A DNA stretch of 64,000 bases, from NCBI GenBank assembly GCA_037042915.1, contig CM073196.1, positions 62,001 to 126,000 of the forward strand, read 5' to 3'. The notes beneath the pieces are model-generated. The model ran no database searches. It had not been told where the DNA came from and was given only the letters and a program-made list of their open reading frames with translations. This stretch comes from Auricularia sp. M13 (Eukaryota > Basidiomycota > Agaricomycetes > Auriculariales > Auriculariaceae). Position numbers and translations under genes: made by a program. Positions 16,836-44,915 of this stretch are shown piece after piece. Position 1 is the stretch's first letter; every line of letters begins with the position of its first letter.

Positions 16836-17586
16836 GGGACTTTTCGCTTAAGCGATACCCGCACTTTGTGCAATGCATCGGTTCTAGGGTTCTGTGTACA
16901 ATGCCACGTTTTAAACACGGGTTAAAAAACAGTGTTTAAAACATTGTTTTAAAACAGACGTCCGAAAATTGGCTGTTTAAAAACAAAATACAGTTCAGTT
17001 GCAGGACCTCTGAGACATGTGTTGGAGGCATGGATTTTGTCTTTGTGCCATTTCCCGCTATATCCTAGTAGCCTCCATTGCTGGTAGCATATGAGTTAGC
17101 TGCATCTCGCATCTCACACAGGTGATCAGTGAAAGATTCATTCAACTGCAGGAGCTGTCTCAGTGCTGTAAGTAACTAATTAGCAAGATCTCACAAGAGA
17201 ACAGCATTCTTCCAGTGCCCAGACCTGAGAGTGTTGTTAAACATCTAGTATAGAAAGTGGCTCATTCTGACCTATATTCTCACAGGTAGAAGTTTACAAC
17301 ATTACATCGAGCATTAAAGTTTCAAGAACCATGCATTACCAATCATACCTGGCAAGTATCTGTGATATCCTAGGGTATGAGGAGGTATACCTGGGCAAAT
17401 TTGACTGGAAGGTTGCTTTTTCTAAGCTTGTCTCGATGTTTCTAATGCATTACATAAGCAGTGTTTTAAACACTGTTTTAAACACCTGTTAAATAACGGG
17501 TTGGTTAAAAAACATGTTGAGAATAGCTCGGGCATTTTACACAGAACCCTAATCGGTTCAGCGATTCCCACACTTTGGCACGTTTT
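16836..17586 (+). repeat. left terminal inverted repeat, split by a nested MITE
   Basis: Starts GGGACTTTTCGCTTAAGCG, continues through CCGCACTTTGTGCAA and GCATCGGTTC, is interrupted by the hAT MITE at 16885-17551, and resumes with AGCGATTCCCACACTTTGGC. With the MITE and one target copy removed it matches the reverse complement of 44841-44915 at all but about six positions plus one indel. It contains small palindromes (CGCTTAAGCG). Confidence 0.8.
16877..17559. mobile_element. hAT-type MITE nested in the giant element's end
   Basis: A 667-bp element (16885-17551) with inverted ends TAGGGTTCTGTGTA / TACACAGAACCCTA and an exact 8-bp duplication ATCGGTTC (16877-16884 and 17552-17559). Both ends are rich in GTTTAAAAC-like motifs. 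No coding capacity. A different family from the MITE at 16.1 kb. Confidence 0.87.
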
Positions 17587-17639
17587 CAGTGTTCAAACGT
17601 CTGTAGTGTAATGGTACTAGCTATCTAATAATAATATTT

Positions 17640-17935
17640 AAATCGCTTGGAATCGCTGGTAATCGCTTGAGCTCGCTGAAATATGAGCACGGACGGTCAG
17701 CGCTCGCATGGCAGTGAGCCTGGCAGTGAGCCTCGCTGACAATCGCTGAGCATCGCTGGGGGCCGCTTAAATATGAACATAGTCGGGCAGCACCCACACA
17801 GCTTGGAATCGCTGAATTAACATGGAGCATCGCTGAGAAGCGCAGTGCATCGCTGGACAATGTGCAAATACTGATACCGTCAATCAGCCCCCCGCACCGC
17901 TGAGAATCGCTGCGCATCGCTGAGCATAGCTATGC
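17640..17935 (+). repeat. left subterminal ATCGCT repeat cluster
   Basis: About ten copies of ATCGCT (AATCGCTTG, GCATCGCTGAG and variants) in 300 bp, all in one orientation, with a mirror-image cluster at the other end. Likely transposase binding sites by analogy with other large DNA transposons. Confidence 0.7.
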
Positions 17936-18096
17936 GAGCGACCACGGACCTACCGCCGCTTACCCCAGCGTCAAGCAATTATGAATGGCTGAAAAATCAT
18001 GGAACATGTTAGCGTTGTTGCAGCAGTGCGTCATATACAGTCGTTTCACCAAAGCAGAGTCTACGAGAGGGGATTTGACAAAGTATCTACATTACA

Positions 18097-21000
18097 TCAC
18101 GAGACAAACGGATTGGCGGGCATCACGGTGGGCATAGTGGGCAGAATCCCAAAGTAATCCTGGAAGCTCTGCGCGTAGAAGCTCCAGACCTCGCGCTTAA
18201 TATCGAGCAACTTCTCCATTGACAAACCCTCTGTTGCAGTGTAGCGCCGGAGGTTGGTAACCTCGCGGCACCTCGGCCACGCGCGCACAATCTTCCACAG
18301 GCTATATATTGAGACCTTGCGGTTCTCGGGGTTTGGGTCAGTGTGAGGCGGCTGCCGTAATCCTAGAGGTACAAATCCGTCTTGCCCGCCCCAGCAATTG
18401 AGCCAGAGAGCTTCGCGGTCCTGCCGCACGGCGTCGTTCCAGATCTTGAGCGACTTGAGAATGTAGGTGTCGAGGTCCCGCAGCTGAAATCGAAACGAGG
18501 TTTCCTGCACCTCCCACACCAAGAAGGCGCGCACGTCGGCCCGAGCGAGATCCTCTTCGGCCAGAGGATGTTGACCGATGAAGAGGGTCTTCGTTGCGCG
18601 TCCATTCGGCTGCTCGGCCTCGTAGCCGTAAACTGGATCGGGCGGCGGCTTATTGCCTTCCCCAGCATCTGCACCCTGCGTTGGGGGGTTCGGCGTAACC
18701 GCAGCTGAGCGCCCAGCGAACACAGCTGTTTCCTACATGCATTGATTAGCAACATTCAGCCACAGAAAGATAAGACGCACCTGACGAAGGGGCACGGCGG
18801 CCATCCACATCGCCCGAGAGCCGGAGGCCAGGCCATCAGCATCTGCCACTGACTGGTGCCAGGCCAAGTTATTCTCGTCGAGCAGAATCTCGTTGTCCTC
18901 GCCCACAGCCTCCTCCTCTGGTACGCGGGACGATTTGCGGAACAGCAGCAAGCGGCAGCTTTCGTAATCCCAGAACTCATCCCATTCCCCGGTCAGCAGG
19001 AGCTCGCGGTCCGCAGTATCCGCTGCATACATGTGCCCAGTGGTGCGCTCGAAGAATACTGAAGCAGATTTGACCTTCTGCTTCCATTGGTACGGCTCGG
19101 CAAACGCTCGCGCGCTCTTGACGATAAGATCCTCGCCCTCAGAGGGCAGACGTGTATAAGCCATGCTGGGGCGAGCTTCAGCGGCGGCGACAGGCGGCAG
19201 AACCAAGCTCATATCCGCATTCGCGGCAAGAGTCGACGTGGTGGTGGCGTTGTGCAGCAGAATATGTGTCCTGCTGGTGAGCGAGGCGGCTTTGTTCACG
19301 TCGCTGGCCTTGATGCCCAGGCCCGTGCAGTTCTCCTTGACCCACGACTCATGCTCCGGGGTTGTATGGTACTTGTCGTCAAGAACCTTCCGCCATATTT
19401 TAGCCGATAAACCAATGAAGCCGTCGCGCATGATGCGCCGCAGCCAGAAGTTGCGCAACGCAACCCAGGACCTGAAGACAAAGACCATGCGGCTCTCCTT
19501 CTGCGCAACAAAGTGGTGGAAGGGTGGCATGGTATACTGTAAAGGCTCTCCGAATCGCGCCTGCGGAACTGGGTGCAGAACGTCGGGTGCGCATAGCCGA
19601 TATTCGCGCATTCGAGAGCGGTCCACTGAAGCAGCAACGTGCGCAAGCCATTTTGGCGGTCGCGGCACCCACTCTGGAAGAGCAGGGTGGTCATTGGCCT
19701 GGTGCCCTGGGTCGGTTTCCCAGGTCCGTGCGATCCAAGCCGGGGGTGCGTCTGCGGGCCGACGCGACTTGCTACCAGCTAAAGCAAACACGTGAGCAAG
19801 GGCACCAAAAACAACCCACAAACGTACCAGGGTAACGAGGCTCTTCCCTCAGCAAATATTGAGGCACCCTTGACGCTGGTTCCGTTCTTGTTGTGCGTGG
19901 CGGCGATCGTGCTCGAGGACGTGCCCGTCCAGGCCTCGGAGACCGGGATCGATCACGGGAGACTGAGCGTGTTGCGGGCTCAGGTCCGCGCGCAGGCGCT
20001 TCATCGACTGGCTCATCGTCCTGGGGTCGTGGTGTACCCACATGCTCGTCGTCGTCGGGGTAATACGGCGGGGTGGGTGGCCGATACACTACCCCACTCC
20101 AATCCCGTCCCTCAGTGTCTAGAGCGTCCCGCGGCATCATCTCAACTCGGCGGAAGTGCTCAAACACGCGTGACAGCTGGTCTTTCCTCATATTGGGCGG
20201 CATGGATTTTGAGACGAACCAAACGGGTATCCCGAGACGGTGAAGGAGCGTCACCATCGCGCTGTCCGTGCTGAAGACGCCAACACAGTCGTACATGCGA
20301 TCCGATACAAAGCGTTCATCGCCAACATGATATTTTACATCGAGCCTGAACAATCTGAAAGCCCGGAGTTCGGCGATGCCGCGTTGTATGCGGGTGACGG
20401 ACACAGCGGTCTCGCGGAACGTTGCTGTCAGACTTTGGAAGTCTGACAGCAAGCGGATGCAGTCGTTGATGGTGGTGGTGGGGAGCAAGATGCGCGTCCT
20501 TGCCGTCCGCAGAAGAGGCAGCACGAGCACGTATATCTCGTAGAACGAGTCTTGCAAACGCGCCAGCAATGGCCGCCCAGGCGCCCGTAACTAGCGCCGT
20601 CCTGCACCGGCAGCCAGTCTTCGGGCTGCATGACATAGCCCGTGATGTTTTCTCCGTACAGGTCACGGTGCGGCTTGACCAGAGGAATCCACGCCATGTG
20701 CGGTGCCGCAGGCTGCCAGTACTGAGGGTACTGCATCGGATCGTGTACGCCCAGCCGGAAGTCTGTGCGCAGGCGCGGGTACTCGTTGATGGGCAGGTCC
20801 GGGATGGGCTCGCCCGGGAGAACGAGTAGATATACCGCTTGGCCTCAGAGTCGAACGCGACAGCTTGCGGCTTGCAGGGCCATGGATCGTTCTCGAGCCG
20901 CGGGCGCCATGACGCAGAAAGCGTGGCCACGGCCTCCTTCGAGTCGCCGCGGGCGCGAATGGTATCCGGGAGCATCCTATTCCCGACAAATCAGTCTCAT

Positions 21001-21375
21001 CCTAACAGTTGAGCGGTATGCATACCTGCTCCTCGGCAGCAGGCACAGGCGCGTCTGCAGAGTGCGATCCACCGTGCCCGTCATCCTGAGAGAATGTGAG
21101 CAGCGCGCCCATCGGCTGCACTTATGGATGCAACCCACCTGCATGTTCACGTCGTCGGCATCTCCACCCACATGGATATCGTCGAGTCCAATCTCGATTT
21201 CTTCGGCTTGGGTGCTGGCGGTGGCAGCAGCGGCGGCGGCGGTCGCGATATTGCCCTCGTGATGCTGGATGCTTGTATCGCCGCCATGGTCACCCATGTC
21301 GACGTCGCGCGGCGCGATTGACCCCGGGGCGATCGCCAGCAAGTCGTAAATGTCGGGTTCGAATGGGTTCTGCAC
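18097..21375 (-). CDS. large unknown cargo protein
   Basis: Minus-strand gene of about 1,000 aa read from spliced segments: 21375 to about 21140 (acidic, Ala-rich start), about 21085-20990 (two small exons), about 20975-19830, 19790-18781, 18732-18097. Introns near 21.1, 21.0, 19.8 and 18.75 kb have good GT/AG signals. Conserved-looking blocks are IPDLPINEYPRLRTDFRLG, MYDCVGVFSTDSAMVTLLHR followed by GIPVWFV, then an Arg/Ser/Pro-rich linker and a C-terminal part with WRKVLDDKY and FQDYFGIL. I do not recognise a domain; I recall similar GIPVWFV blocks in multi-copy agaricomycete proteins but cannot name them. The frame changes near 20,835 and 20,590 without clean splice sites, so the copy may carry frameshifts. 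Confidence 0.5.
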
Positions 21376-24558: not shown

Positions 24559-26642
24559 CTACGCAGTGATCATATGGAGCGCGCCGTGCGCGTCGCGGCG
24601 GATATACGGCGGGAGTTCGCGCATGCCGTCCAAATTCAACAGCGGCAGGTACGGCTGGAGTTTCTGAATGCGGTGGTGGACGAAGGGCAAAATCTGGTCC
24701 ACCTTGTCCTCCATCAACGGTTCGTCGCCGTCCAGCGCAAACGCGTTGCGCATCACCGTCAGCTCGAGCTCACGCTGATCGCCCGTCAATAGGTCAAGCG
24801 TGGCACGGTCAAGCTCAGGAATGGCGGCGTCCTGCTCGGCGGGCACGATACCATAATCGAGCGCAATGCCGTAGGCCAATCGGGGCAGATGTTCTGCCAG
24901 ACGCTCGAGTCGAGCGTTGCGGATGGCATCGACCAGCCGGGCAATCACACCGGCCTGGTCGCCTGATAGATCGTCGAGTATGTCCCGATATTCGTACCTC
25001 CACAACGTGAGCTCATCGGCGCAGCCAGTCAATAGGTCAACCGTCGCCGCGGGGACGGGCGGATCGAGGTGGAGGTCCCGCGGAAAATGGTTGAAATAGT
25101 CGAGCGTCACTGGCAGTGCTTCCATCCAACCGTCCTCTGAGCGGTTGTTGTCGTCGTCGTCGTCCTCAAGCATGTCAACATCGCCGTCGTTCGACCCGTT
25201 GTCTTCGTCGCTGGGCTGATAGTCAGGGTCAGCTGGATCGTCCGGTGCTGCCGCGGCCGGTACGAATCCGAGTGGGAGTGGCAGCTCGTCGAGCTCTGGG
25301 GCATTGTTGAAAACTCTACGCGGCGCTGCACCACCCCATACGACGCGATCCAGCCAGGTTGAGTCAAAGCCGTCATCCGGATTGGGGTCCATGTTACCGT
25401 GCTCGCACGCCTCTCGCAAGTTCCAATTCTCGACGGGCGGCTGTCGTATTGTACCGCGGCAGGTCGGGCACTGAGGCGCCCTGTAGAGGAAGCGACCGTG
25501 CTGCGAATGAGCTTCCTGCAGACAGCTCAGATGGAAAGGGCCGTGTCCGCATCGCAAGCTACATCTCTGGTAAGTTCACTTTGCGCGCAGTACGAACATA
25601 AAACTCACCTGTAATATCTGTGCACCCGCCGCGCGCAGAAGCACGTTAGGCTGTTCTCCTTGACCTCGCGCTGCAAGTAGTTAGCATTGCGCCTGGTCTC
25701 GATATGTCTTTTGTACGTACCTCGGCCGCCAGATCGGCTTTCACTTTCTCTAACTCCTGCCGCAGTGCCGCTAGCTCCGGCGCGTGTTGCTGCGTGTCAA
25801 CCTCCTGCGCCGCAAGCCGTAAGTAAAACATACCAACTATAACGCTGTACTCACCATTGTTTCCAGCGCGAGAAGCTGGGGATCAAACTCCTGCGAACAG
25901 AACGTAAGTGTCAAGGCCGTGCCACTTTGCGTTGCCTAACCTCCTCGCTCTCCCCATTAGCCTCAGCAGCTACAGCAGCGTCGTCGTCGCCAGCCATTTT
26001 CTCGAGACGAGCGTGCATGTGAACCGCGGAACTCTCGCTCACCGAGACCGCCACGACGTCGTCCTGTAGTGCTGTGAGTACAATCATGCGCTGGAGACCT
26101 GTGCACTAACGTCGTCTTTTTCAACCAGGATGCCGTTGACCAAGTCGAACCCGAAGTCGCGAGGACTCGTCCCATCGTTTGTCTTTTCGTCCTCGGTATC
26201 GGAGATCTCGATGACGGTGCTCGGCTTGCGGATGCGACGCGAGGTGGCCGACGTCGAATGCGCCTGTGTGGGAACTTCATCCTCAGAGTCGGACGAGATC
26301 ATGATCACGTCCGCGGGTGGCGTCTTGGCCTTATTCTATAAAATATTGTCAGTACGACTTCGCCGCGGCGACGCCAGTATATTGATGCGCGTACCTTGCG
26401 ATTTGCAGCCACACCGTGCCCTTCGCCTGCCTGGAAAACTGTCCATCAACTGCGGTTCGTGAAGTCGACAAGAGCATACCTGGCTGCCAGTGTGTAATGC
26501 CGCACGTACGTGTGCGACCTGCACGAGCTAGTCAGCTTGCTGAACAGCTATAGCAGAGACAAATCACCGTGAGAGCAATAGGCTTAGCAGACGCTGCGCG
26601 TGCTGTTGTGGCGCCGCGACGATGAGAGGCTTTGGACTCCAT
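24559..26642 (-). CDS. RING-type zinc finger / coiled-coil cargo protein
   Basis: Starts at ATG 26642 (exon 1, 25 codons, to 26568; intron with a CTGAC branch point). Small exons follow: a Ser/Asp/Glu-rich segment (26308 region, SSDSEDE and SDTEDE motifs like SUMO-interaction sites), a coiled coil (ALRQELEKVKADLAAE), then a C-terminal exon from about 25568. Introns are about 39-60 nt with clear GT/AG signals. Cys/His spacing CFC...RCSLRCGHGPFHLSCL...CPTCRG is RING-like though the first pair is tight (CxC). An acidic linker with DDDDDN and a helical tail follow. The likely role is an E3 ubiquitin or SUMO-targeted ligase; the substrate is unknown. It is divergent from the dioxygenase gene across a 483-bp gap. 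Confidence 0.65.
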
Positions 26643-27125: not shown

Positions 27126-29589
27126 ATGGAACTTCGCAGTGGCCGCTTCGTCAACGACGCCCCAGTCATCCGCTCAGACTTCGACCTTATAGCGAGCGCC
27201 GCTGAGATCAGCGAATTCGACGGGTTTACCGCACGTGATGTCCACCCGCACGCAAACCTCAACCTCGCCGTCAACCTCATGCCCCCTAAATAATACGGGT
27301 TCGAGGAGGACTCTGGCTCTGAGTACGAGCCGTCAGACTCGTCGGGCTCAGAGAGCTCAGACGGTCGCGAGGAGCCTGTGCGCCTCAAGCGCAAGGGTGA
27401 GTCCATCTCTTCATCCGTCTCTTCATCCGCTGAACAGCGCTGACTTCGCACCCACAGCTGGTGTGACGCTCGTCTCGGGGAGCAAAGGTCAGCATATATG
27501 CTGCATCTCTCGCTACCGTTAACTCTGGTCTTGTAGGCGATCGTTACACGTCCGGCGCGCCAGCGCCCACCGTGCGTGCTCCGCGCGGTATGCATTTCAT
27601 CTGACACCGCGCCATGTGTTGATCTCTTCCCCGCGTACAGCTACCTCAAGTCCCACGTTCCGGGAGCTGTGCGTCCTGGTCCCCCAGCTGTCAGCACGCA
27701 CCAAGGCTCTCCACCGTCCTCTGCAACACCAAGTTCCTGTTATCCGCGGTAGTGGTATGTTTGTCCGGTATATATTTGAGCATAATGCCGACGAGCTCTA
27801 GGACGCGATGTTAAGCTTGGCGACGGGCGCGTTATTTGCATGGCACCGCCGCAGATTGTGCGGCACGATCAGCGACGTGAGTTCTTGGTGTTGTTTATAT
27901 TTCTGAGCTCATCTATGTGGGATAGGTGCTCTACGCAAAGCCCAAGTGCTGGACGCACGTCGAACCGATGATTCCCAGCTGCAAGAGGGTGTGTTTGTCA
28001 TGCATGGCTTGTTGTCGCTTTCTTACACTTCTCTTATCCAAGAACATCGTCCGCGCAAGGTACAGCGGCTGATGAAGAGCAAGAAGCAAGTCAAATCGTC
28101 CGCTGAGTCTACGAAGAAGCATGGCGAGCCATCCGTGTCTACGAAGAAGCAAGTTGGGACATCCATGGTAACCAAGGTCAAGACCGATGCGCAACGCGAG
28201 CGCGCGCGGCGTCACCGATTGAAGCAACGTGCGCGGGGTGGACCCAACGCTGCCCATGCTGCGAAACAGATCAAGGAGGCGGTCCGCATCGAGTCCAACA
28301 TTGACGTTAAGTCTCACGTTACTGGCAAGAGCTCGTTCATCGCGCCGTCGAAGTTCCGCGAGGAACAAGTTCAAAGCTCCACTTCGTCTGCCCGCACACC
28401 TCTACGTTAGACCCCAACGTTTCGACGATGGTACGCGATCTTGTGGAGAAGCAGGGCGCTCTATACGTGGTTGCAGACGAAAGGTGTGCGCGTACCATGC
28501 ACTGGCGCTGGTTGAGCTCACGATTAAAATTTGCAGGGGCGTGATCATGACAGATAACAAGGGTCGCATCTACTGTGTCAAGGCGCCAGCATGCACAGAT
28601 CCCGGCTATCTGGATGCGCAGCGTCATTGTGCGCAGGAGTTGAAGCGTCTGCAGGAAGAGCTCAGTATATGCCATGAGGACAACTCCCCCAGCACGAACA
28701 CATGTGGCAACTTCTCGAAAATCCAGGTCGGCACTTCCTTTGGCGGTGGTCAGAAGGTGTGTTCTGTTTGTAGCCTCGTCTTCATTGCGGCTGAGAGTTC
28801 TTTAGCAGCCCACTCGTTTTTCGTCGGACATCGGTAGCGACGTCAAGTGCACCGCACGGCAGGAAAGGAATCGTCGACTCATTGGCACCTTCCTCAAGGA
28901 TAAGAAAGTGCGCCGGGTCGTCCAGTACGCGCAATGTACGTGCATGTCAGTTCATAATACGCGTGCTGATTGTCGTTAGCATCTGCCAACAACGCGTTCC
29001 CGGAAGTGATGGCAGAGTATCGTCAGCTCAACGAGGACTTGAACCTCAACGAAGCGTTCCGCCTGGACGACGATGACGATGACGAAGACGAAGAACCATT
29101 CAACTATTATTTTGCGGCGATGACCTTCAATCTCGGCCCACAGGCGAGTTATATTTTCTTTGTGCACGTCCGTCTTGACTGACGGTGTATAGGTTACGAC
29201 GCTCTTCCATCGCGACGCTATGAACTTGCAGCAGGGCATTTGCACCATCATCGCAATGGGCAAATATAACCCGAAGACTTCGGGTCACTTCATCATGAAG
29301 GAGCCCAACGTCGTCGTCGAGTTCGCCCGGCGATATCCTCTTCGTCATGTCAGCGCTCATCACTCACGGCAACGCACCGTTGAAGTCACACGAGTACCGG
29401 CAATCGTGGACTTTCTACACCGCCGGTGGATTGTTCCGTTGGCGTTGTGCGGGCGAGAGATGTTTGAACGAGCTGCAGACGGACGAGGAAAAGCGGGCAT
29501 ATATGCGCGCTGCCAAGAGTTGGAGTGAACTAGCTTGGGCTAACCTTCTGACCATTGATCAGCTTGTTCGATACTATGCTCGCGATTGA
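27126..29589 (+). pseudogene. TET/JBP-like 2OG-Fe(II) dioxygenase, mutated
   Basis: Plus-strand, about 12 exons with short introns; the 5' introns are all phase 1. Basic Lys/Arg-rich middle (28050-28380), then the C-terminal dioxygenase core: NLGPQ|VTTLFHRDAMN (HxD iron ligands), GICTIIAMGKYNP, ALITHGN (distal His), EYRQSWTFYTAGGLFRW (Arg for 2-oxoglutarate). This order matches the agaricomycete TET/JBP family, which oxidises 5-methylcytosine and is often carried with KDZ transposons. Lesions: an in-frame TAA at 27291-27293 (exon 1); a frame change near 28,370-28,410 without a splice site; a net +1/-2 shift at about 29325 between VVEF and PGDILF, inside the catalytic core. One intron uses a GC donor (CAG|GCGAGT, about 29143). 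Confidence 0.75.
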
Positions 29590-31684: not shown

Positions 31685-32323
31685 GCGACGCGGGTCGACA
31701 GAGCCGAATGTCTGCAGGTTCCAAGCCGCGCATATTGTGCCGTATCGAGGACACTATATCAGGTGAGCTGCGAGCTTGTATTACGGGCATGCACAGTGCT
31801 CACAATTACTATAGCATGCCCGGCGTATTCTGGGTAGCTGTCGACGGTGGCCATGATGGTCGGATGGCGCTGTCGACAAGCAAGCTCTATGCACACAGCG
31901 GCTCGAGGTATACCTCTGGGGACATGGCGAGGTACTGTGACCAGCGGCATGGTGGGAAGACTTGGCTTCGCAGCGCACGCGGTGTGCTGGTGAGTGTTTG
32001 ATAATTATGAGCCCAAGACCTCGCCCGATTGACCTGTACGCTGTGCTAGGACCCCGAGGTTCATTACATTACCCACTGAAACGTGAGAGAAATCTCCCAT
32101 CTCAAGGGATCGACGCAACCTGGTCCTTAAGCGATATCTGTATTCAACGGACTTCGGTCAGGCTCATGATCCCACCGGGACCTGCCGTGATGCGCGCGTT
32201 TTGACCTCTCGACGTGACCCAGCCCCAGCGTGACCTCGCGCAAGCCCCCATTGACTTATATGGCGTCTGCGTTCTGGCACCCACACAGTCATTCCCCACC
32301 CCGCTGGCCCGCGAACGTGCAAC
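31685..32323. other. intergenic between divergent cargo genes
   Basis: About 640 bp. May include a 5' exon of the minus-strand gene and the promoter of the plus-strand gene. Nothing else is supported. Confidence 0.35.
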
Positions 32324-33568
32324 ATGCCGCTCCCTTCCATCATCAGCGACGAGCCCGACGTCCTCTGCCCGGTGACGGAATGCGACCATGCTGCACGCTG
32401 GTACCGAGTGTACCGTGGTACAACGCCGATGAAGGTCGCCGCGGTATGTGCAGCGACGCTCGTGTGTGACCCAACATGCTCACTGTCGCCGTGTAGTGCA
32501 AGGAGCACGGTATAATCTACCAGCTCTCGTCTGCTCGCACCGTCATTCCGTTCAGCTTTGCACACGCCCGCACCCCAAACGAAGTCCAACTGGCCCTCGA
32601 CAACCCAGACTGTTGCCTGATCTGCCGCCGTCGCAGCGACGTTCACTGCTCATTGATGTTGTGCTGCGAGTGCTGTGCCATCTTTCGCGTCCGCTGCCGC
32701 CTCCGCACCCATACTGCCCGTGGCCAAGCCATGTACCCGGAGCGCCCGCCAAACCTCTCCAGGAACTTGACGTGCGGGATTTGCAAGTTGAGCACCGCAT
32801 CAAGCTACTTGTATCCTGCGCTCATGTCTGGGTGGTGCGTACTCCGTCCCTGCTGTCGACGACGTTCAGCTCATCCTTCCCTCCAGGGCAGCCCAGTCCG
32901 CCCAGCTGGCCACAAAACCTACTCCATCACAATGTGCACGCGTGCCAGCCATCGCAGGTTCACCTACTACCACGAGCTCGCCACCAGTGATCGCACCATG
33001 CATGACCTTCGCCTCGACAACATTACCCTGGACCGTATCTACTACAACGACGCCTACGAAGAGGACGACCCTCCTTTTGCTGGGGATCTCGCATTCTACA
33101 AAGGGCATGCTATGTACGAGGAGTTGAACACCCACACCGCGGTGCTACGGCTTGTGGTGTACGTCGACGTCGCGGAGCTCGGGCGCCATGTCAACGATCT
33201 TCGACCGGAGGAGCTCGACTACAATCGAGATTGGGACACCCTCGGCAACATCTTCGCTCACGTGCAGTGCGTCTTCCAGTCTCGCAACTTTGTATGTGCA
33301 TTTTTCCCCTATCCCTTCATGGTTGCCTGATTATTCACAGATCCAGGACGTGGATGCCGAGGGCGCGGATGGCGAGGCGGATTGGTGTGTTGTGGAGCTA
33401 CCTCGCCGTCGGCTCAGGGTGGCCGACTGCCGATTCTATCTCAAGGACTTCTCCGAGGAAGCCCGCACCATCCTTGGCATCGAAGATATCGCTGACGACT
33501 GCATCAACGACGGTCCCGACGTGGCTCTACAGTACGATCTCTATGATGAGGCCGAGGGGGTGAGGTGA
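32324..33568 (+). CDS. Cys-rich cargo protein of unknown function
   Basis: Starts at ATG 32324; first intron GTATGT...GTGTAG (about 32442-32492), a second at about 32835-32888, a third GTATGTGC...TTCACAG at about 33292-33341; about 350 aa. The N-terminal half is Cys-rich: CPVTECDHAARW, CKEHG, CCLICRRRSDVHC, LCCECC, CGICK, suggesting one or two zinc-binding units. The C-terminal half is acidic and hydrophilic (EELDYNRDWDTLGNIF, FYLKDFSEEARTILGIED). No catalytic motif recognised. It lies on the same strand as, and about 390 bp before, the proline-rich gene. Confidence 0.55.
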
Positions 33569-33954: not shown

Positions 33955-36195
33955 ATGTCGCCACCAGGTGGTGGTGGACCCGATGATCCGCCCTCGTCGA
34001 CTCAGCCAAAGCGCAGGGGCAAGTGTCACGTACAGCGGCCTATCTGGACGGTGGTCGGCGATCCCAATCTCGTTGTCACCCCAGCATGCATGAAAGAGCT
34101 CAAGCCTGAGTTGTACAAGTTATACCAGTTGAAGCGCTCAGGTGCATCAAAAGCAGAAGTACGCATATACACTTCCCAGCACATCATTCCCATCTGGGAG
34201 GCGCACGGGCTGCACGTTGTGGACAAATTTCCTGAGCTTTATGACGCGGACTGCAAGTCGCAAGACGCTCGCACGGTAAAACTGTTTGCTTGCTTTTATG
34301 CTCCTAGCTGACAGCTGCGTAAGGCATTTCGGCAGGACGTTCGTAACAACTCACTCGCAGACTGCGTGTGGATCAAGATTTACGAACAGTCGCTCAATGC
34401 GTCGAACAAGAACACGCGGTGAGTATTTTCTAAATTCTTTACCCTCGTCGTCCGTGCTAACGGGGGCCAGCACTGCAGCAACACCCGAGGGTGCCCTTCA
34501 GGCGGGTCAGTCTCGGCCGCCAACGACGGCTGATAAAGGTCGGGCGGATAGCGCAAGAGAGCTATATGCGCGGATGATCAAGGCCGACTTGGACCGTGAA
34601 ATTGCCGAGAGGCTCGCCGCAGAGTTTGACACTGCGGATTGGAACCAGGAGCGGATTCCGGTGCGAAATCGAGTTCTTTCTGACCGATGGGCGCTGTTGG
34701 ACACGGAGGAGAAGATGCGCTATGCGGGGGCCGCACAGGAACTGTCCTCCGAGCGAAGTTCGCCCGCCAACTTGGAGGCGCAGGAGGAAGTGTAAGCATC
34801 GAGTCAATGCATTTCCCTGTCTAATTCGATTATTAGGATCGAGCAAGAGCTTATCCAAAAAATCGCAGATCTTATGGGAAAGCTCTCTTATCGCTCCACG
34901 AACATGGCCGTTTTCCAGCTCGCGCAACTCGATCCTACAACCGGCAACGTCGTAATCAAGTCGTACGTTTGTACTCTTAATACTTTCTATTATGTCTTAC
35001 ATGGGAACAGACTACAGGGTATAGGCGGGAAAGGCAAGGTTGGCGAGTGGCTCAAGAGCACAGAGCATAACCGGCACGATGAAGCTCTAAGAGATTACTG
35101 CATGCGGGTTTTACCAGGTATGGTCTTTCTTGCAGGTGGAAGTGGTCGCTGACATCTTTGTAGGTATTCACGCAGCCGAAGTCAAGCGACTGTCCAAAGT
35201 AGCAGTGCGCGCTACTCGCGGTAAGTTCAGTACGGGTTGCTTTGGCATCTCATCTCACGCCGAGAATATACAGGCTCAAGCTCAATTGAGCAGACACCCA
35301 AACCGCCGGACCAGCAGGCGCTGCTGCTCCCGCAGACTCCGGTGCTGCCGGAGCAAACGCCCAGACCGCCAGATGTGCAGACGGTGCCGCTGCTTCAGCA
35401 GACGCCTGAGCCACCGCCGGAGCAGACGCCTGAGCCGCCGGAGCAGCAGATGCCTCAGCCGCCGCCGCCGCAGCAGACGCCCGAGCCGCCGGAGCAGCAG
35501 ACGCCCGAGCCGCCGCCCCAGCAGACGCCCGAGCCGCCGGAGTTAACGCCCAAACCGCGGGATGTGCAGATGGTGCCGCTGCTTCAGCAGACACCGCAGC
35601 CGCCGGAGCAGCAGACGCCCAAGCCCGCGGAGCAGCTGACGCCGCAACCGCCGGAGCAACAGACGCCCATATCGTCGCCCCGGGAGCAGCAGACGGTGGA
35701 GCAGCACCAGACGCCTGTGCGCTCGAGGTTCGGATCACAAGTGGTAAGTCGGGTTGTTCTAAGTTTAACATAATCGTTGATCGGCTGCAGCTTCCGACGC
35801 CAACTGCGTTCCCCAGCACACCCGGCGGCAGCCCTTTCCGCACCGTAGACCCGGAATCGCCTCTCACTCCCATACCCGCCGAATCAACCGCTGTGGGAAA
35901 CGGAAAAAAGTATGTATTTTCTGGCAGTACACCCAGTGATTTTAAAGTCTTCACCAGGCGCAAGGTCAAGGATGGCAGCGATGCACCGTTGAAACGGATG
36001 AGAGCTGCAGATGCCCAAACTTCCGATCGTACGATGCGCTCACGTGCGCAGAAGGTACCGGCTCGGCCACGTGAACCGGCACCGGCGAGGAACATCGCTC
36101 GCACCGTCAAAAATACAGCACCTGCAACCGCAGGTAATGGACCTCAAAGGCCCAAGAGAGTATGCACTACAGGGGTAGATTACAAGGATAGCTAG
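33955..36195 (+). CDS. cargo protein with proline-rich tandem repeat
   Basis: About eight to nine exons with short introns (for example GTAAAA...CTGACAG at 34276-34314). N-terminal part: SPPGGGGPDD, RPIWTVVGDPNLVVTP, KLYQLKRSGASKAEVRIY, then helical segments (ELYARMIKADLDREIAERL). A repeat-rich exon at about 35270-35740 encodes 12 or more units of the form QTPEPPEQ/QTPEPPPQ, a polyproline-II-like linker. The C-terminus is basic (RRKVKDGSDAPLKRMR, RPKRVCTTG). No catalytic domain recognised. The gene ends 239 bp before the transposase start codon on the same strand, so it is likely a transposon accessory protein. Confidence 0.6.
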
Positions 36196-36434
36196 GCTGG
36201 AAAACATAAAACAATGTTCTGGTTTTTACAATCTCGGCCGATGGGCCGTGTGTTTCCGAGAGAATTCAAAGTCCGGACTTCCCTTTCGTACTCGCCGTAC
36301 CTGCGGCCTGCTAGGCTCTGTTGCCGCCAGCACGCTTGCTGCATCCGCATTCGTGGGTGTAGATTATATGCGCCGCCATTCGGTGGTGTATTACATCGTG
36401 ACCAGGACTTCGGCTCTCGCTGTGTTTTTACAGG

Positions 36435-37122
36435 ATGCCGCCTCGCAGCAAGCGTCCCCGTATCCGAGCGCCAGAGCTCACCCAAACTGTCTATACAGTC
36501 CAAACTACTGCTAGCTCTTCTACGTCTGTCGATGTAACTTCCGTTCACTCCCCTACCCGTACTTTAAGACCCAAGAAACGCAAGGCTGCCGAAGTGTATG
36601 TACATAGTATAGAGTACAGTGCCAGGGAGGGTCCGTTACCAGCGGGCGATGATACAGCCTTGCAGCCAGCTCCTAGCTCGGCGCCTCACCGGCAAACCAC
36701 AGGGCGGGCCAGGGGCGTGGGTACAACCCATGGCAAGGTACGCTGTGCTTTCGACTTGTGTGATACTTTTACTGACATTGAGTGTATAGACTACATCGGA
36801 ATTCAACAAAGAATTCGAAAGGGCGCGAGCACAGTTGCTGGACGGTATGATGAGCTTGGAGTGGAACGAGGATGTTGGCAAAGTCTGCGACTGCGAAGAG
36901 CATGGACGTCGTCTTTATCGATGCCTTGACTGTTTTGGATCCTCCGTCCACTGTCATACCTGCTTCCTTGAGCGCCATGGGAGTCTGCCGCTGCACGCCA
37001 TCGAGAAATGGAACGGGTCGTCGTTCGAGCCCGCCGCGCTAGGCGATCACCCAGAATTCAAGGTACATCTTGGACACAACGGCGCTGCGTGCCCGACAAC
37101 GTTGATGGAAGTTCAAGCCTGC
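36435..37122 (+). pseudogene. KDZ transposase, 5' part (CxC2 domain), interrupted
   Basis: Exons 36435-36737 and 36790-37122, both in phase. The Ser/Thr/Pro-rich N-terminus has PKKRKA (likely nuclear signal). Exon 2 begins the Cys cluster associated with KDZ transposases: VCDCEEHG, LYRCLDC, CHTCFLERH, PLHAIEKWNG, LGHNGAACP. The gene is cut after the codons GCC TGC by a 4,236-bp insertion with an 8-bp duplication. The reading frame continues exactly at 41367, so without the insertion the coding sequence would be uninterrupted. Confidence 0.85.
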
Positions 37123-40100
37123 CACCCCAGGCACTTGCCTCGGAAGCAAAATTTGGTTCCGTAGGGGGGTTTCTCCCATACAGAGAAAACCCCCTATGAT
37201 CTGGCCGATGGCCAGCTTCGTCTGCCGCCGCCATGTGCTCGTCGGCCGCTGCCGCGCGTTCGTCGGCTGCTGCCGCGCGCTCGTCGGCCGCCACCCCCTA
37301 CTCATCGGCCGCCGCCCCCTGATCATCGGCGGCCACCGGCGCTTCCGGCAAATCCCGAAGGGGGCGCTGGGGCCGTCGGGACCGGCCGGAAAGATCCGGA
37401 AATGAAGCGTCGGGCTGCCCAATGCTTCGTCGGCCCAGTCTGCAGACCGGCGCTTAATTCGTCGGCCGGCCGTTGACCGGCTTCGCCAGCGGCCGGTCGG
37501 AAATGGCCGACGGCACTTCTAATCCTTCGTCAGCAGCCCTTCTGACCGGCGCTTAATTTCTGTTCGTCGGCCGGCTGTTGACCGGCGCTTAATTGGCTTC
37601 GCCAGCGGCTGGTCGGAAACAGCCGATGGCGCTTTCAATTGTTCGTCGGCGGCCGTATCCTTCATCGGCGGCCATATCCTTCGTCAGCAGCCGTGCTGAC
37701 CGGCGCTTAATTGCTGTTCGTCGGCGGGCTGTTGATTGGTGCCTAATTGGCTTCGCCAGCAGCTGGTTGGAAACGGCCAATGGCCATCTCAAGCCTTCGT
37801 CGGCCACCATGGCTGACCGGTGCTTAATAGGTTCTTTGTCGGCCAGCTGAGGAATCGCACTTAATCAGCTTCAACAGCAGATGGTCCTTGGCCAGTGGCC
37901 AAGCAATGCTTGCCTGCCGACGAACCAATGCTTGCTTGCCGACGAACCAACGCTCGGCGGCCACCAAGGAACATACTCAGTAGCTTGGATCACTGTTTGT
38001 TGGCCAGCTGCCCAATGCCATAACAAAGACATTGAAATGTGTATCAGAGTAGTTTCGGTGGCAGGCAAACAAAATCTTGGCTGCTGGCCAGGGAAAGCTT
38101 GCCTGCTGAGGAACAAACGGTCGGCCGCCGCCGAACAAATGGTCGGCCGCCGACGAAGGTCGTTCAGTGGCGGGCGGTGGCCAGATACTGCTGAAATGAA
38201 TCTCCTTGAAAATTTGGCTGTGTGATCCCATATATACTCATGTTGTCCCAGTGAATTATCAGACTCCCAGATGGTCTGGATGGAGTGCTATCCATGCTTC
38301 AAGTGAGGAAGCACAACAGGCCAACCACTGCTCCAATTGTCGAGCTCAAATGGTGAAAGTGTGCTGTTTGACATCTATGAAGGCGGTCCAGGTTGCAAAT
38401 TGTGAGTAGATGCATTGGTTGGCCTTCGGTGCAAATGGCCACTTTTTGCTCAACAATGATCAGTTCACCCAGGAGGGTTTGTTAATTATATCCTTAGTAA
38501 CTCTCGCTGTGGGTTTCAGGACACCATAGAAGATTTTCGAGATAGTATGCAGGTCTGCATATTTTGAAATGACGGTGCAGTGTGCGATTTTGGCGGCCGG
38601 TCTCCCAAGGCCAACAGACCTCATAATCTGAGGTCAGACATTGCTCCACGCATGTGGATTTGTTGGCATACATCCATAACATCCTATCCCAGAGTTTGGT
38701 TGCAGGGGATGCGGAATTGATGGAGGAATTGCATTCGCAATTCTGTCCCTCAGTTTCTGTCCAGAAGGACTTTCACCCAGAGCGCATTTGTTAATTATAT
38801 TCTTAGCAATTTAGGGTGCGTATGCCAGGACCTCATACATGATTTTTGAAATAGTTTACAGGGCTGTATATTTTGAAATGATGGTGGGGTGAGCGATTTA
38901 TCGCTCCCAGCCTTCCCACCCTCCCAGAGCTCAGTACCCGAGCTTAGTACATACTCCAAGCACGTGGAACTGTTGGATTGTATGCCTACATAAACCTCCT
39001 GAAGTATGAACGCGATTGATTAAGGACTGGTGGAGGAATGACATGCGCATGTGGTGGAACTGAGTTGCAGCCAAGTTCACCATGAACTGCACATGCAACC
39101 TACCCCACCTTCCAGGTCAAGTGTCTCAGTGCCCATAAAGTACATGATCTCAAGGATGGCATTGGGTACATTGGTTTCGTGAGGTCCTAGCTTCTGAGAA
39201 GCATGGGCTGGAGGGTGGTATGACTTGCAGTGAGATCACCAGGACATGTGGTTGCAACCTACTCCACACTCCAGTCCATGCTTCTCAGAGGTTAGGACCT
39301 CATGAAACCAGTGTACCCAATGCCATCCTTGGGATCATGTACTTTATGGGCACTGAGACACTTGACCTGGAAGGTGGGGTAGGTTGCATGTGCAGTTCAT
39401 GGTGAACTTGGCTGCAACTCAGTTCCACCACATGCGCATGTCATTCCTCCACCAGTCCTTAATCAATCGCGTTCATACTTCAGGAGGTTTATGTAGGCAT
39501 ACAATCCAACAGTTCCACGTGCTTGGAGTATGTACTAAGCTCGGGTACTGAGCTCTGGGAGGGTGGGAAGGCTGGGAGCGATAAATCGCTCACCCCACCA
39601 TCATTTCAAAATATACAGCCCTGTAAACTATTTCAAAAATCATGTATGAGGTCCTGGCATACGCACCCTAAATTGCTAAGAATATAATTAACAAATGCGC
39701 TCTGGGTGAAAGTCCTTCTGGACAGAAACTGAGGGACAGAATTGCGAATGCAATTCCTCCATCAATTCCGCATCCCCTGCAACCAAACTCTGGGATAGGA
39801 TGTTATGGATGTATGCCAACAAATCCACATGCGTGGAGCAATGTCTGACCTCAGATTATGAGGTCTGTTGGCCTTGGGAGACCGGCCGCCAAAATCGCAC
39901 ACTGCACCGTCATTTCAAAATATGCAGACCTGCATACTATCTCGAAAATCTTCTATGGTGTCCTGAAACCCACAGCGAGAGTTACTAAGGATATAATTAA
40001 CAAACCCTCCCTGGGTGAACTGATCATTGTTGAGCAAAAAGTGGCCATTTGCACCGAAGGCCAACCAATGCATCTACTCACAATTTGCAACCTGGACCGC

Positions 40101-41366
40101 CTTCATAGATGTCAAACAGCACACTTTCACCATTTGAGCTCGACAATTGGAGCAGTGGTTGGCCTGTTGTGCTTCCTCACTTGAAGCATGGATAGCACTC
40201 CATCCAGACCATCTGGGAGTCTGATAATTCACTGGGACAACATGAGTATATATGGGATCACACAGCCAAATTTTCAAGGAGATTCATTTCAGCAGTATCT
40301 GGCCACCGCCCGCCACTGAACGACCTTCGTCGGCGGCCGACCATTTGTTCGGCGGCGGCCGACCGTTTGTTCCTCAGCAGGCAAGCTTTCCCTGGCCAGC
40401 AGCCAAGATTTTGTTTGCCTGCCACCGAAACTACTCTGATACACATTTCAATGTCTTTGTTATGGCATTGGGCAGCTGGCCAACAAACAGTGATCCAAGC
40501 TACTGAGTATGTTCCTTGGTGGCCGCCGAGCGTTGGTTCGTCGGCGAGCAAGCATTGGTTCGTCGGCAGGCAAGCATTGCTTGGCCACTGGCCAAGGACC
40601 ATCTGCTGTTGAAGCTGATTAAGTGCGATTCCTCAGCTGGCCGACAAAGAACCTATTAAGCACCGGTCAGCCATGGTGGCCGACGAAGGCTTGAGATGGC
40701 CATTGGCCGTTTCCAACCAGCTGCTGGCGAAGCCAATTAGGCACCAATCAACAGCCCGCCGACGAACAGCAATTAAGCGCCGGTCAGCACGGCTGCTGAC
40801 GAAGGATATGGCCGCCGATGAAGGATACGGCCGCCGACGAACAATTGAAAGCGCCATCGGCTGTTTCCGACCAGCCGCTGGCGAAGCCAATTAAGCGCCG
40901 GTCAACAGCCGGCCGACGAACAGAAATTAAGCGCCGGTCAGAAGGGCTGCTGACGAAGGATTAGAAGTGCCGCCGGCCATTTCCGACCGGCCGCTGGCGG
41001 CCAGTCAACGGCCGGCCGACGAATTAAGCGCCGGTCTGCAGACTGGGCCGACGAAGCATTGGGCAGCCCGACGCTTCATTTCCGGATCTTTCCGGCCGGT
41101 CCCGACGGCCCCAGCGCCCCCTTCGGGATTTGCCGGAAGCGCCGGTGGCCGCCGATGATCAGGGGGCGGCGGCCGATGAGTAGGGGGTGGCGGCCGACGA
41201 GCGCGCGGCAGCAGCCGACGAACGCGCGGCAGCGGCCGACGAGCACACGGCGGCGGCAGACGAAGCTGGCCATCGGCCAGATCATAGGGGGTTTTCTCTG
41301 TATGGGAGAAACCCCCCTACGGAACCAAATTTTGCTTCCGAGGCAGGTGCCTGGGGTGAAGCCTGC
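37115..41366. mobile_element. 4.2-kb near-perfect palindromic element with hAT-type duplication
   Basis: 37123-41358 is one inverted repeat: two arms of about 2.1 kb around a spacer of about 40 bp centred at 39240. It begins CACCCCAGGCAC and ends GTGCCTGGGGTG, flanked by the 8-bp direct repeat AAGCCTGC (37115-37122, 41359-41366). Arms have equal length and only scattered differences. Outer parts carry TCGTCGGCCG-type repeats. Small mirrored frames (such as 38494-38682 minus and 39800-39988 plus) are identical on the two arms and resemble no transposase. A non-autonomous foldback-like element; hAT assignment rests on the 8-bp duplication. Confidence 0.9.
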
Positions 41367-44300
41367 CCTGAAATCTTGCCTGAGCATCGTTACACTCACT
41401 CCATGACCGTGGTACACCTGAATGGTCATCACACCTTGAACTTCGTCCTCTGCCGGTGTCGGGGCCCTCGACAGGAGCTGCCCAGTCTGGTGCATCAGCT
41501 CATCCGGGCACGCATCTTCCCCAGCACGTTCAGTCGACCGACCGTCGGCTATACATTCGAGCTTATGATGCATTGGCACTTGGAGTCGCTCCAGAGCAAA
41601 AAATCAACTTGGGACTACTGGCAGGCCGTGTGTCAGAAAAATAAACGCGGCAAGGAGAGAGTGAGTTTACATCTTCAGGATATTATTTTTTGGCTCATAC
41701 CCCGAGAGAAAGGCTACCATGCATTTCTTCGAGCCGGACACTTTTGGCGCGTACTTAAAATGCAGCTTCGAAGCGGTCAGGCTCTCGGAATTGACGGGCA
41801 TCTCCCCGCCAATCGTTGGCCTGGCTCGGTCATCGTCGCTTGCCCTGCGTGTCCAGAGCCAGAGTTCAATCTGCAGCCGGGCTGGCATGACTTGGCCAAC
41901 GACGAGAAGCACAGGTGAGAGATCAGGCCTCCAGGATTCATGTATTCATGCGACACAAGGTTCAAATTCATCCTGTGGCACGGTACAGACGCATCGTTCA
42001 AGGTTTATTTGAAGGTCAAACTTCGGGACGCTGGGGACACTTCCTTGCTCGATGGATGCGCTTTCCTTCCTCGACGCTCAGATTGGGAAGCATACACGTC
42101 CAAAAATAGCGATATTTCGCAGGCATGACCATTTGTTCATCAAATGCCTAAGCAGTACTAATAAACTCTCAGGAGGCTGGATCGTGTCCTGGATACGACA
42201 AGATGCATAAAATCCAGGACCTCAGCAATCGAGAGGTTTCGGGTTTGTCTGCTGTGTGCTGCATACGTCACAGCTGCTTCCCGGCGATGGGAATGGTAGA
42301 CTTGAAGCTGGGCGAAAAGTACGTCTGAGCACAGAGATTCGAGGCTGAAAAATGCTAATGTCTTCAGGTATTATATGATTGGCCACGGCTGGGTATACGC
42401 CCAAGGACCGAAGCCTGACACCGACTTACCCCGCGCGCTGTCGAGTGACAGAGCCTGCTCTTTGTGCATCAACATCATGCGGCGTTTGCGAGACGAATTC
42501 CCCGACCGACAGGACGTCCAGCAGATCGCGAAAGAGCTCGTGTGGGTTATACCCAAAATGCATATACAGGGTCATTGTGAGAAGTGTCAATATGTGTATC
42601 ATCTTCTGTACACACCGGGTGCTGGGAGAGCGTGCGGAGAAGGGGTTGAGCGGCCGTGGGCAGAAACAAAGCTCGCGGCGGCCATATGTCGGGACGCGAA
42701 CGCCGGTCATCGTCATGACATCCTCAACGACGTTCATAATTTCTGGAATTTCAACAAACTGGTTGGACTTGGTGAGTGCGGCTCGATTTGCTGTTGGCAA
42801 GGACTTAGAAAATTTGTAAGCAAAATATCTTTACTCCCAGGCCGCAGAAGCACACAAACACATTGCCGTGTCCAAGGCAGAATTCGAGGAGTTTTCGAGC
42901 TCCATTGATCCTGCGCGCATAGCTGCCTGGGAAGCAGAGTATCCGACGGAGACAGCGGTGGTCAAGGACGATACTATTCGCGGGCGATACTGTGTTGACC
43001 CTGCCAACCGTGAAGTTCAAACGCTAATCTGTGAAGAGCCAATCACTTACGCACTGATAGGCCCTAATCACAAGGACGTCATAGCAAGGCTTGAACGGGA
43101 GGAGCGTCTTCCTGGACAGATCCGTAAGAGCGGTGTTGTGGGCATGATGGCTAAAGGCGTGCAGTTAGCAGAAGATCAGTACGTGCCTTTCACAATTTAC
43201 TGTTTACAGCTCAACGTGCGCAGAGTGCGACTACGTGGGAAAGCCGCCAACGCACGAAAGAATAAGCAGGACAAGGAAGCTCAGCAGAGCGTGAGACAAA
43301 AGCGTCGTAACTTGAGCGAGCGCATAGCCAGCTTTCGCCGACTGCAGCTCAGGCATATGCCTTACCTTGCCGAGGCTATTACGGAGGGTGAAATCGACTC
43401 CGGTGATTCCGAAGACGAGGAGAGTCTCGAGGAGACCGGTTACGCTGAGGATGTGCCGTTGATGCTACCCTCCTGGTTCAGCGAGGAGGAGCGGAAGGAG
43501 AATGGCGTGCCAGATCGCTTGGTCCACATGGAGCGAGAGCTTCGAAAGGCACATGCTGAGGGCACGCTCTCGAACCTGCGATTCAGCATTCGACTTTTCG
43601 GCTCCAATGCTGATGAAGCTCGAGATCAGGTGGACAGCACGGGTGGTAAGACGAGAGCGAGAGCATACCTAAAAAGAATGAAGTCCAAGCAAAATGTCTT
43701 TGTCAATATCTATTCGGAGCATCTAAGCGCGCTCAGGGCCTTGGGTCTGAGCCGGGAGGACACAACCTATCAGGATCTGGACGCTACTATGCTGCGCGCT
43801 CACGCACCCGTCGACAAACCTCAGCCACTGAATGTTGGCAAGTCCAAGGGAGATGTTGCTTGGTTTTGGCGAGGGGAACTGGACGTTGGGCTTGTTTCCA
43901 AGCAGGAGAAAACCAAACTTGCTCTTCTGACAGATGACGGTGCGTGCAACGGACAGAGTTGTCTTTGCAAAATTAACATACTGCATAGACAACCGCGTCC
44001 GGTATTTTCGTTTGCAAGGCCATTATCGGCGCTGGTCTGAACAGATGTCGATTGTGGGCGCAGAATTTGGGCGCAGCGAACGGCACTTTTCTCGAATGCG
44101 TTCTATTTGGCAGGCCATCGGTAACCAGCAGGGCGAGAAAGCGGAGGAGATGGAGCATACTGCCGCAGCAGCGGCAGCAAACTACGGCCCCGATGTTCCG
44201 CGGTGGCAGCGTCAGCCCGCCGATGAGCTGCGTAGCCGGCAAATTGCACAAGGGGCTGCAGCCTATGCCTTCCAGAAGGCGTCATTTTATGGCGCTATGT

Positions 44301-44469
44301 TGGAGGAGGTCAAGCGGCTGAGAGCTACAGCCTGTGCTCAGTTCAAGGTAGCCGAAGGGTGGAATGAGTTCGACTCTGACCGTGAGTGTATGCTCAGCCC
44401 TCAGCATGCGTACAAGCTCATATTATCTATGCAGTGTACTCCGTAAACAAAGATAGCGTTTCGGCTTGA
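41359..44469 (+). pseudogene. KDZ transposase, 3' part (rest of CxC2 and catalytic core)
   Basis: Exons 41367-41660, 41709-41914, 41960-42122, 42173-42318, 42368-42771, then about 42841-43940, 43988-44382 and a short last exon. Finishes the CxC2 region (MTVVHLNGHH, LCRCRG), then the KDZ core: CPACPEPEFNLQ, GTDASFK (presumed first catalytic Asp), SSDRACSL (second Asp), WVIPKMHIQGHCEKCQY, GAGRACGEGVERPWAE (Glu), GHRHDILND. The C-terminal part (42868-44380) is helical. No stop or frameshift seen, so apart from the 4.2-kb insertion the gene looks intact, about 1,000 aa in all. One intron has a GC donor (CAG|GCATGA at 42122). Splicing at 42772-42840 is unclear. Confidence 0.82.
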
Positions 44470-44529
44470 AATCGGAGGCTATTTATATTTTAATGTAATA
44501 TGCGAGCGGACGGTGGTGTAGTTAGCAGG

Positions 44530-44790
44530 GATATTTAGCGATTACTAGCGATGTCTACCGATCTTCACCGATTTTCAGCGATTTTGTGGTACAGCGATCA
44601 CAAGCGATGGTGAACGCACCGGCTTTCCCTACACGCCGCTTTCCACCGATGCCCACCGATTTCGACCGAATATCCTCATGTTCTATCCGTGCTGATTCCG
44701 TAGCTCAGCGATGCGAAGCGATGTCAACCGAAACCCAGCGATCACAAGCGGCCCAAAACGCTGTCCTCAGCGATGCCCAGCGATTTATAC
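44530..44790 (-). repeat. right subterminal ATCGCT repeat cluster
   Basis: About ten AGCGAT motifs on the plus strand (ATCGCT on the minus), mirror image of 17640-17935. Related ACCGAT variants are interspersed. Confidence 0.7.
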
Positions 44791-44840
44791 TGTAGTAACG
44801 TGTCTCTATCTACACTCGGATTACATTTACTTACTTTTCA

Positions 44841-44915
44841 AAAACGTGCCAAAGTGCGGGAATCGCTTAACCGATGCGTTGCACAAAGTGCGGCAATCGC
44901 TTAAGCGAAAGTCCC
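44841..44915 (-). repeat. right terminal inverted repeat of the giant element
   Basis: Reverse complement begins GGGACTTTCGCTTAAGCGAT and continues CCGCACTTTGTGCAACGCA, matching the left end closely over about 75 bp. Confidence 0.8.

Follow-up and report, generated by a model that had tools for sequence, protein, structure and literature searches.

A multi-gene KDZ transposon family, most likely of the Kyakuja branch, in the genome of Auricularia sp. M13

A 64-kb stretch of DNA from Auricularia sp. M13 (positions 62001 to 126000 of contig C4; here, the window) contains a block of seven genes enclosed by inverted repeats, which a preliminary description had taken to be a giant KDZ transposon. 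Our analysis makes it probable that this block belongs to a family of multi-gene cut-and-paste DNA transposons, of which it is one copy and whose native unit measures about 22.9 kb; the family most likely falls in the Kyakuja branch. The idea that the whole block forms a single mobile unit was borne out by its paired termini, by 7-bp target site duplications and by the recurrence of the gene set in 12 large elements of the same assembly.

RESULTS

Paired termini and copies in the assembly

The search space was the whole assembly (52.1 Mb, 14 contigs). Queried with the right terminus of the window copy, it gave 25 matches, three of them from the window copy itself, whose left end is split by a miniature inverted-repeat transposable element (MITE). 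The preliminary description had raised the prospect of unpaired termini as evidence against a mobile unit; instead, 23 of the 25 matches form 11 inverted pairs, which delimit ten elements of 22.7 to 28.1 kb and one of 4.65 kb. Another match is an end of C1d (C1:4677134-4712389; 35,256 bp), the other end of which, with a matching 7-bp duplication, was found afterwards. Only a match on C10 (C10:3642359-3648102) is unpaired: it is 99.8% identical to the right end of the window copy over 1.3 kb, unrelated beyond, and lies 5.7 kb short of the end of the contig. Since the match covers 1.3 kb only, it was not attributed to a plain full copy truncated there. For comparison, another nine large elements were retrieved with their flanks, as was the short one, and protein searches located two diverged elements, C1d and C2d (C2:2290002-2312478; 22,477 bp).

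The tips of the window copy lie at 16826 and 44926, giving a length of 28,101 bp. The left tip, CAGCTGTGTC (16826-16835, forward strand), and the right tip, ending GGTACCATTG (44916-44926, reverse strand), both stand outside the inverted repeats; their outermost 10 bp differ from one another, and each is identical in 11/11 bounded copies. Self-comparison of the window placed the left inverted repeat at 16836-16884 and, past the MITE, at 17560-17586 (both forward strand), while its 75-bp right counterpart at 44841-44915 (reverse strand) was identified by inverted-repeat search and genome-wide matches. The earlier limits of 16836 and 44915 thus mark real inverted repeats, though only their outer borders, conserved sequence reaching 10 to 11 bp beyond. 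The 59-bp left end (16826-16884) was matched in 10 other elements at 84 to 100% identity. In seven of the 10 elements with unsplit ends the 75-bp inverted repeat is 93% identical; in C2d it extends to 346 bp. All 13 elements bounded on both sides have CA..TG tips.

The sequence AGGGAAG stands directly outside both tips of the window copy (16819-16825 and 44927-44933) as a perfect 7-bp duplication; looking for a target duplication had been proposed as a check. Twelve of the 13 bounded elements have perfect 7-bp duplications, each different (TGTCTCG in C1d, GAAATTG in C2d), and the thirteenth has one mismatch. Among the 11 copies that share tips, the duplication is perfect in 10 and has one mismatch in the eleventh; none of the 11 has an 8-bp identity at the target site.

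Age of the copies and their mode of spread

Nine copies are colinear over their full length. Six of these large elements (C7a, C1c, C6, C2b, C2c, and C4b) differ pairwise by substitutions at 0.13 to 0.71% of positions, from which movement is judged to be recent. C2a and C1a are more distant, with per-kilobase identities to C7a of 57 to 98% and 49 to 88%, respectively. C1b (C1:6148150-6171411) is a mosaic relative to C7a: its left 7 kb, at 56 to 91% identity per kilobase, comes from a diverged subfamily and the remainder is 91 to 100% identical, a pattern of recombination or gene conversion between subfamilies.

The near identity of six copies, together with the mosaic structure of C1b as a sign that recombination occurs, is what a segmental duplication, or a gene cluster amplified by recombination without transposition, might also leave behind. 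We give this explanation practically no credence: the tips are sharp and identical, and comparison of 1.9-kb flanks of 11 copies found no similarity between copies, which are therefore separate insertions rather than duplicated segments. The different 7-bp target duplication at each site refutes it.

Two other members of the family have unusual structures. With respect to the genes, each end of C2d carries the outermost 10 bp typical of the other end, as though the two tips had swapped places, and the 346-bp inverted repeats are identical; a 181-bp piece of its end is also present at C12:1138726-1138906. The short element, S7 (C7:621711-626353; 4,653 bp), has family tips, a perfect 7-bp duplication and a mostly unrelated interior, and is probably a nonautonomous derivative.

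Subterminal repeats

About ten inward-pointing ATCGCT motifs had been noted at each end. The count is exactly ten at the left (17642-17921, forward strand) and ten at the right (44537-44784, reverse strand), compared with two outward motifs at each end, and the two densest 300-bp motif clusters of the window are these two ends. The motif differs in the diverged elements: C2d has a CCGCT type (13 + 13 inward, 2 + 2 outward) with no ATCGCT, and C1d also has the CCGCT type (9 + 12 inward, 5 + 2 outward) with one and three ATCGCT. C1a is mixed, with 14 ATCGCT at the left and five at the right beside three and four of the CCGCT type. That both ends differ in motif from one subfamily to another suggests that the subterminal repeats are transposase-binding sites that follow their transposase.

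Nested insertions and native size

The nine other large copies that share tips measure 22.7 to 24.2 kb, and two nested insertions account for most of the extra length of the window copy. We put the native unit at about 22.9 kb, with a range of 22.5 to 35.3 kb among related members; the 28 kb previously given as the length of the element is inflated by a MITE and a palindrome.

The MITE in the left end, already recognized in the preliminary description, is a real insertion of 667 bp (16885-17551) bounded by TAGGGTTCTGTGTA termini; on either side of it the 8-bp sequence ATCGGTTC is duplicated (16877-16884 and 17552-17559). The matches listed include at least 11 full-length copies, the window one among them, at 98 to 100% identity, and the MITE is missing from the other element copies. 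From the length of its duplication we take it to be hAT-like.

The second insertion, missed previously, is a near-perfect palindrome (fold-back element) of 4,235 bp (37124-41358, with arms of about 2.1 kb and a 23-bp center), flanked by a 9-bp duplication, AAGCCTGCC, at 37115-37123 and 41359-41367. It sits within the transposase gene and does not occur in the nine other large copies compared. An assembly fold-back artifact was considered and rejected, palindromic relatives being present at six or more other loci (C5:78261-82534, C9:741318-745952, C6:3678659-3683310, C7:3278556-3282736, C2:3554228-3558750, and C11:1101076-1104063). Duplications of 9 bp are typical of Mutator elements, and we presume that the palindromes are perhaps Mutator-like fold-back elements. 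With its transposase gene split, the window copy has probably lost its autonomy; since its tips are intact and copies without the palindrome exist, it may still be mobilized in trans.

Gene content

Gene models were built with a home-made comparative gene finder on copy C7a, and dN/dS was estimated by the Nei-Gojobori method. The transposase gene, g7 (36405-44446, forward strand; start approximate in the window, 3′ end at 44446 or 44548 depending on the choice of last intron), is interrupted by the palindrome and encodes about 1033 amino acids (aa) in the C7a model. Its product matches the Pfam models KDZ (PF18758; E 2e-33, 116.4 bits against a cut-off of 26.6) and CxC2 (E 2.3e-18, 66.8 bits against 27), and on these domain scores the element is a member of the KDZ superfamily.

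Six accessory genes precede it. g1 (18097-21144, reverse strand; about 780 aa) has no known domain: no match was obtained in a Pfam scan or in the PDB, and a homologue search that scored 7,989 candidates yielded none at E 0.001. g2 (24570-26302, reverse strand; about 400 aa) encodes a RING-type protein and g3 (27126-29589, forward strand; about 600 aa) a TET/JBP-type dioxygenase with HxD...H residues. g4 (30891-31854, reverse strand; about 256 aa) and g5 (32324-33568, forward strand; about 361 aa) encode Cys-rich proteins, and g6 (34090-35409, forward strand; about 290 aa) a protein with very weak HMG-box similarity (E 0.057). Possibly g5 and g6 are a single merged gene, predicted at 699 aa.

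Where the preliminary description had counted at least seven cargo genes, the data support a transposase and six accessory genes; a proline-repeat protein that was part of that count is not supported, as no gene was modeled for its open reading frame (ORF) and no frame stood out when copies were compared. It is possible that g6 extends at its C terminus into the proline repeats. Also rejected as genes, on the same two grounds, were long tandem-repeat ORFs at 29.67-30.86 kb. Between the TET gene and g4 lies a tandem array (29763-30795; spacing of about 66 to 72 bp) that varies between copies.

Four homologues of g3 (P0020 to P0023) come from Psilocybe and Mycena. The alignment keeps SFGGGQ, TFNxGP, HxD..N, a second H, and YTAGGLF, and the iron-binding HxD...H residues (H119, D121, and H172 in query numbering) are invariant with P0020 to P0022. 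This supports the view that g3 is a TET-type enzyme with the residues needed for iron binding. The element appears to carry its own enzyme for removing silencing DNA marks. PDB sequence searches with g3 and with P0020 found no TET protein.

Conservation and recurrence of the gene set

Judged from their coding sequences, all seven genes look protein-conserved. Comparison with C1a and C2a gave dN/dS ratios, biased downward by the way the gene finder scores, of 0.07 to 0.28 in 14/14 comparisons (dS 0.49 to 1.49 versus C1a): 0.15 to 0.17 for g1, 0.22 to 0.28 for g2, 0.14 to 0.15 for g3, 0.14 to 0.21 for g4, 0.16 to 0.28 for g5, 0.12 to 0.17 for g6, and 0.07 to 0.15 for g7. Against C1b the ratios were 0.10 to 0.22, except for g5 (0.59 at an uninformative dS of 0.008). 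Predicted introns kept their GT/GC..AG ends in 94 of 108 checks, including 24/24 for the transposase. Support free of the gene finder's scoring comes from the accessory proteins of C1d and C2d, which are 33 to 74% identical over the matched stretches.

Whether the gene set recurs between the repeats had been put forward as a further check. In genome-wide protein searches, which scored the best candidates only, all seven genes were found in identical order and orientation in 12/12 large elements, C1d and C2d included. None of the 41, 35, and 41 matches listed for the RING protein, g4 and g6, respectively, lies outside the 12 elements; those listed for g5 comprise the 12 elements and one extra fragment (C1:1213682-1214137). 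Eight further loci appear among the matches listed for the TET protein and many more among those for g1.

These data bear on the possibility that the transposon proper is small, a KDZ element with termini that by chance enclose host genes which it captured and which ride along as passengers, contributing nothing to it. Neither RING nor Cys-rich proteins are recognized as having a part in DNA transposition, g1 and the TET gene have relatives elsewhere in the genome, and the exons of young copies are not depleted in insertions and deletions (indels), all of which would fit passengers. We nevertheless consider this very unlikely, given a gene order that is unchanged in every large element down to the protein identities seen in C1d and C2d, the low if downward-biased dN/dS ratios at substantial dS, and the near confinement of the listed RING, g4, g5 and g6 matches to the elements.

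Large size and multi-gene content are also features of virus-like or Starship-like giant elements (Polinton/Maverick, or Starships moved by a tyrosine recombinase). In 20 stop-to-stop frames and the seven predicted proteins, Pfam analysis identified a KDZ transposase, while polymerase, integrase, capsid, and tyrosine recombinase were all absent from the hits, and the duplications are of 7 bp; the probability that the element is of either kind is negligible. The lack of a tyrosine recombinase captain refers to these Pfam hits, no dedicated captain search having been made.

g1 as a possible mobility gene

At five loci (on C2, C5, C6, C9, and C11) a g1 relative (best stretch 54 to 60% identical) and a KDZ domain (24 to 29%) together occupy a span of about 9 to 15 kb. 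This co-location suggests that g1 may be a core mobility gene rather than cargo. Three observations count against that assignment: other KDZ matches, some of them closer to the window KDZ (for example those at C3:230846, 52%; C6:859805, 47%; and C5:655122, 41%), have no similarly arranged g1 match nearby; many g1-like ORFs have no nearby KDZ match; and no matching ends were found at the C9 locus in short stretches of 1.4 and 1.5 kb.

High-copy g1-like ORFs, many of them of 301 aa, resemble the C-terminal 130 residues of g1 (37 to 38%), at sites that include C3:446588, C12:790520, C10:1924378, C5:3981409, C3:102613, C4:4359641, C9:3608559, and C11:3068689. Plavaka elements were rejected as the source of the 301-aa ORFs, no co-location being seen with 87 Plavaka matches. 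At C7:2696457-2705801, a g1-like sequence (48%) is separated by about 9 kb from a TET-like one (46%), and the KDZ matches listed include none in the vicinity.

DISCUSSION

Overall, the data point to a family of multi-gene cut-and-paste transposons. In the mechanism we propose, the CxC2-KDZ transposase would bind the inverted repeats and the clustered inward ATCGCT-type repeats, cut both tips, and insert the whole block at a 7-bp staggered target. The TET-type dioxygenase would oxidize 5-methylcytosine on the element and in this way counter silencing. A second mobility protein, partner to the transposase, may be encoded by g1, and the RING and Cys-rich proteins could act on host silencing or protein turnover, or else assist transposition.

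A wider reading, which we hold tentatively and rate a little short of evenly balanced, is that of a giant basidiomycete cut-and-paste lineage, a transposase-driven counterpart of Starships. Such a lineage would combine a two-gene mobility core (the KDZ transposase and the orphan g1) with a fixed anti-silencing module (TET oxidase, RING and zinc proteins) inherited as a block, the transposase and its subterminal binding sites codiverging between subfamilies. It is rated lower because several KDZ loci have no nearby g1 and because indels are not depleted in exons.

A number of observations weigh against the interpretation of the block as a conserved, functional multi-gene transposon. The roles of all accessory genes are ones that we infer. 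The gene models are predictions without transcripts, and because the finder scores synonymous changes favorably in the three copies that also served for the dN/dS calculation, the ratios are biased downward. Two of the protein assignments fall below Pfam cut-offs: g2 matches zf-RING_2 at E 0.0015 to 0.0019 and g3 the Tet_JBP model at E 0.0013 (18.4 bits against a cut-off of 34.9). The g3 relative P0020 also stays below that cut-off at 22.5 bits, P0021 has no match, and a structure model of P0020 and three relatives reached a mean pLDDT of 32.4. At the subterminal repeats, S7 has nine ATCGCT at the left and only one inward at the right, the left end of C1d carries its five outward CCGCT motifs as well, and the two ends of C2d are not independent, their 346-bp repeats being identical.

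The indels of the close copies belong here too. Relative to C7a, each close copy has 19 to 37 exonic indels not divisible by 3; frameshift-like indels number 0 to 12 per gene per copy in eight copies and were not used as evidence of intactness. The TET gene of C2b has one in-frame stop. Exons make up 49% of the unit and hold 40 to 54% of the indels, so that the genes may have decayed, or come under relaxed selection, after the latest burst. In five close copies, 45 to 62% of the 1-bp indels touch runs of at least three identical bases, compared with 24% of random positions, an enrichment which suggests that such single-base indels are long-read assembly errors. In C1c and C6, single-base indels outnumber substitutions.

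The family shows that a transposase-driven eukaryotic DNA transposon can hold seven genes as one recently mobile unit of 23 to 35 kb. Its large copies, a dozen within a single assembly and in some cases less than 0.3% apart, offer a test bed for whether TET enzymes borne by transposons counter silencing and for the roles of g1, the RING protein and the zinc proteins. Annotators of repeats may be treating the parts of such elements as unrelated host genes.

Comparison with known systems

TET-positive Kyakuja transposons have been described in mushrooms (Kojima 2025, PMC12730594). They share with the window element a KDZ transposase, 7-bp duplications, CA..TG tips, an internal TET/JBP dioxygenase, and Agaricomycete hosts. 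The 7-bp duplications and CA..TG tips make Kyakuja the most likely branch, an assignment by duplication length and tips; among 19 transposase homologues retrieved, none was labeled Kyakuja, Dileera, or Zisupton. Two Laccaria Kyakuja families have 7-bp duplications and CA..TG ends and, according to the available text, no terminal inverted repeats (PMC12730594), whereas the window family has a 75-bp inverted repeat (346 bp in C2d) that starts 8 to 11 bp inside the tips. The available text of PMC12730594 mentions neither lengths nor further genes for Kyakuja; the window family has five genes besides TET and transposase.

Inverted repeats near the tips could instead indicate a Zisupton or Dileera element, and the active Cryptococcus elements KDZ1 to KDZ3 do have terminal inverted repeats, of 139 to 241 bp (PMC12810828). 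We regard this alternative as unlikely: Zisupton and the Dileera-lineage Zisupton-1_PGr make 8-bp duplications (PMC12730594), in contrast to the 7-bp duplications (one mismatched) and CA..TG tips of 13/13 elements in Auricularia sp. M13. As KDZ elements with inverted repeats, those of Cryptococcus resemble the window family, which most likely falls in Kyakuja. They are shorter, at about 9.2 to 11 kb, and have a CxC1+KDZ transposase in place of CxC2; their duplications are of 8 bp (KDZ1) or 4 to 8 bp (KDZ2/3), and the available text mentions no accessory genes (PMC12810828). KDZ and Plavaka groups make up about half of the DNA elements of Marasmius oreades (PMC8290104).

The literature searched, which lay outside supplementary data and most subscription journals, yielded no account of any multi-gene KDZ element as large as this one. 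As far as that literature goes, the size, the five further conserved genes and the subterminal motif that changes at both ends between subfamilies are new.

PIF/Harbinger, CACTA, and MULE elements pair a transposase with a helper or anti-silencing gene and usually have one or two extra genes, compared with six in the window family. Like the window family, Starships carry several genes together as a single moving unit in fungi (PMC12134995, PMC13066641). In the available accounts they use a tyrosine recombinase captain (PMC13066641), whereas the window family relies on a KDZ transposase, and all 12 of its large elements carry one fixed gene set.

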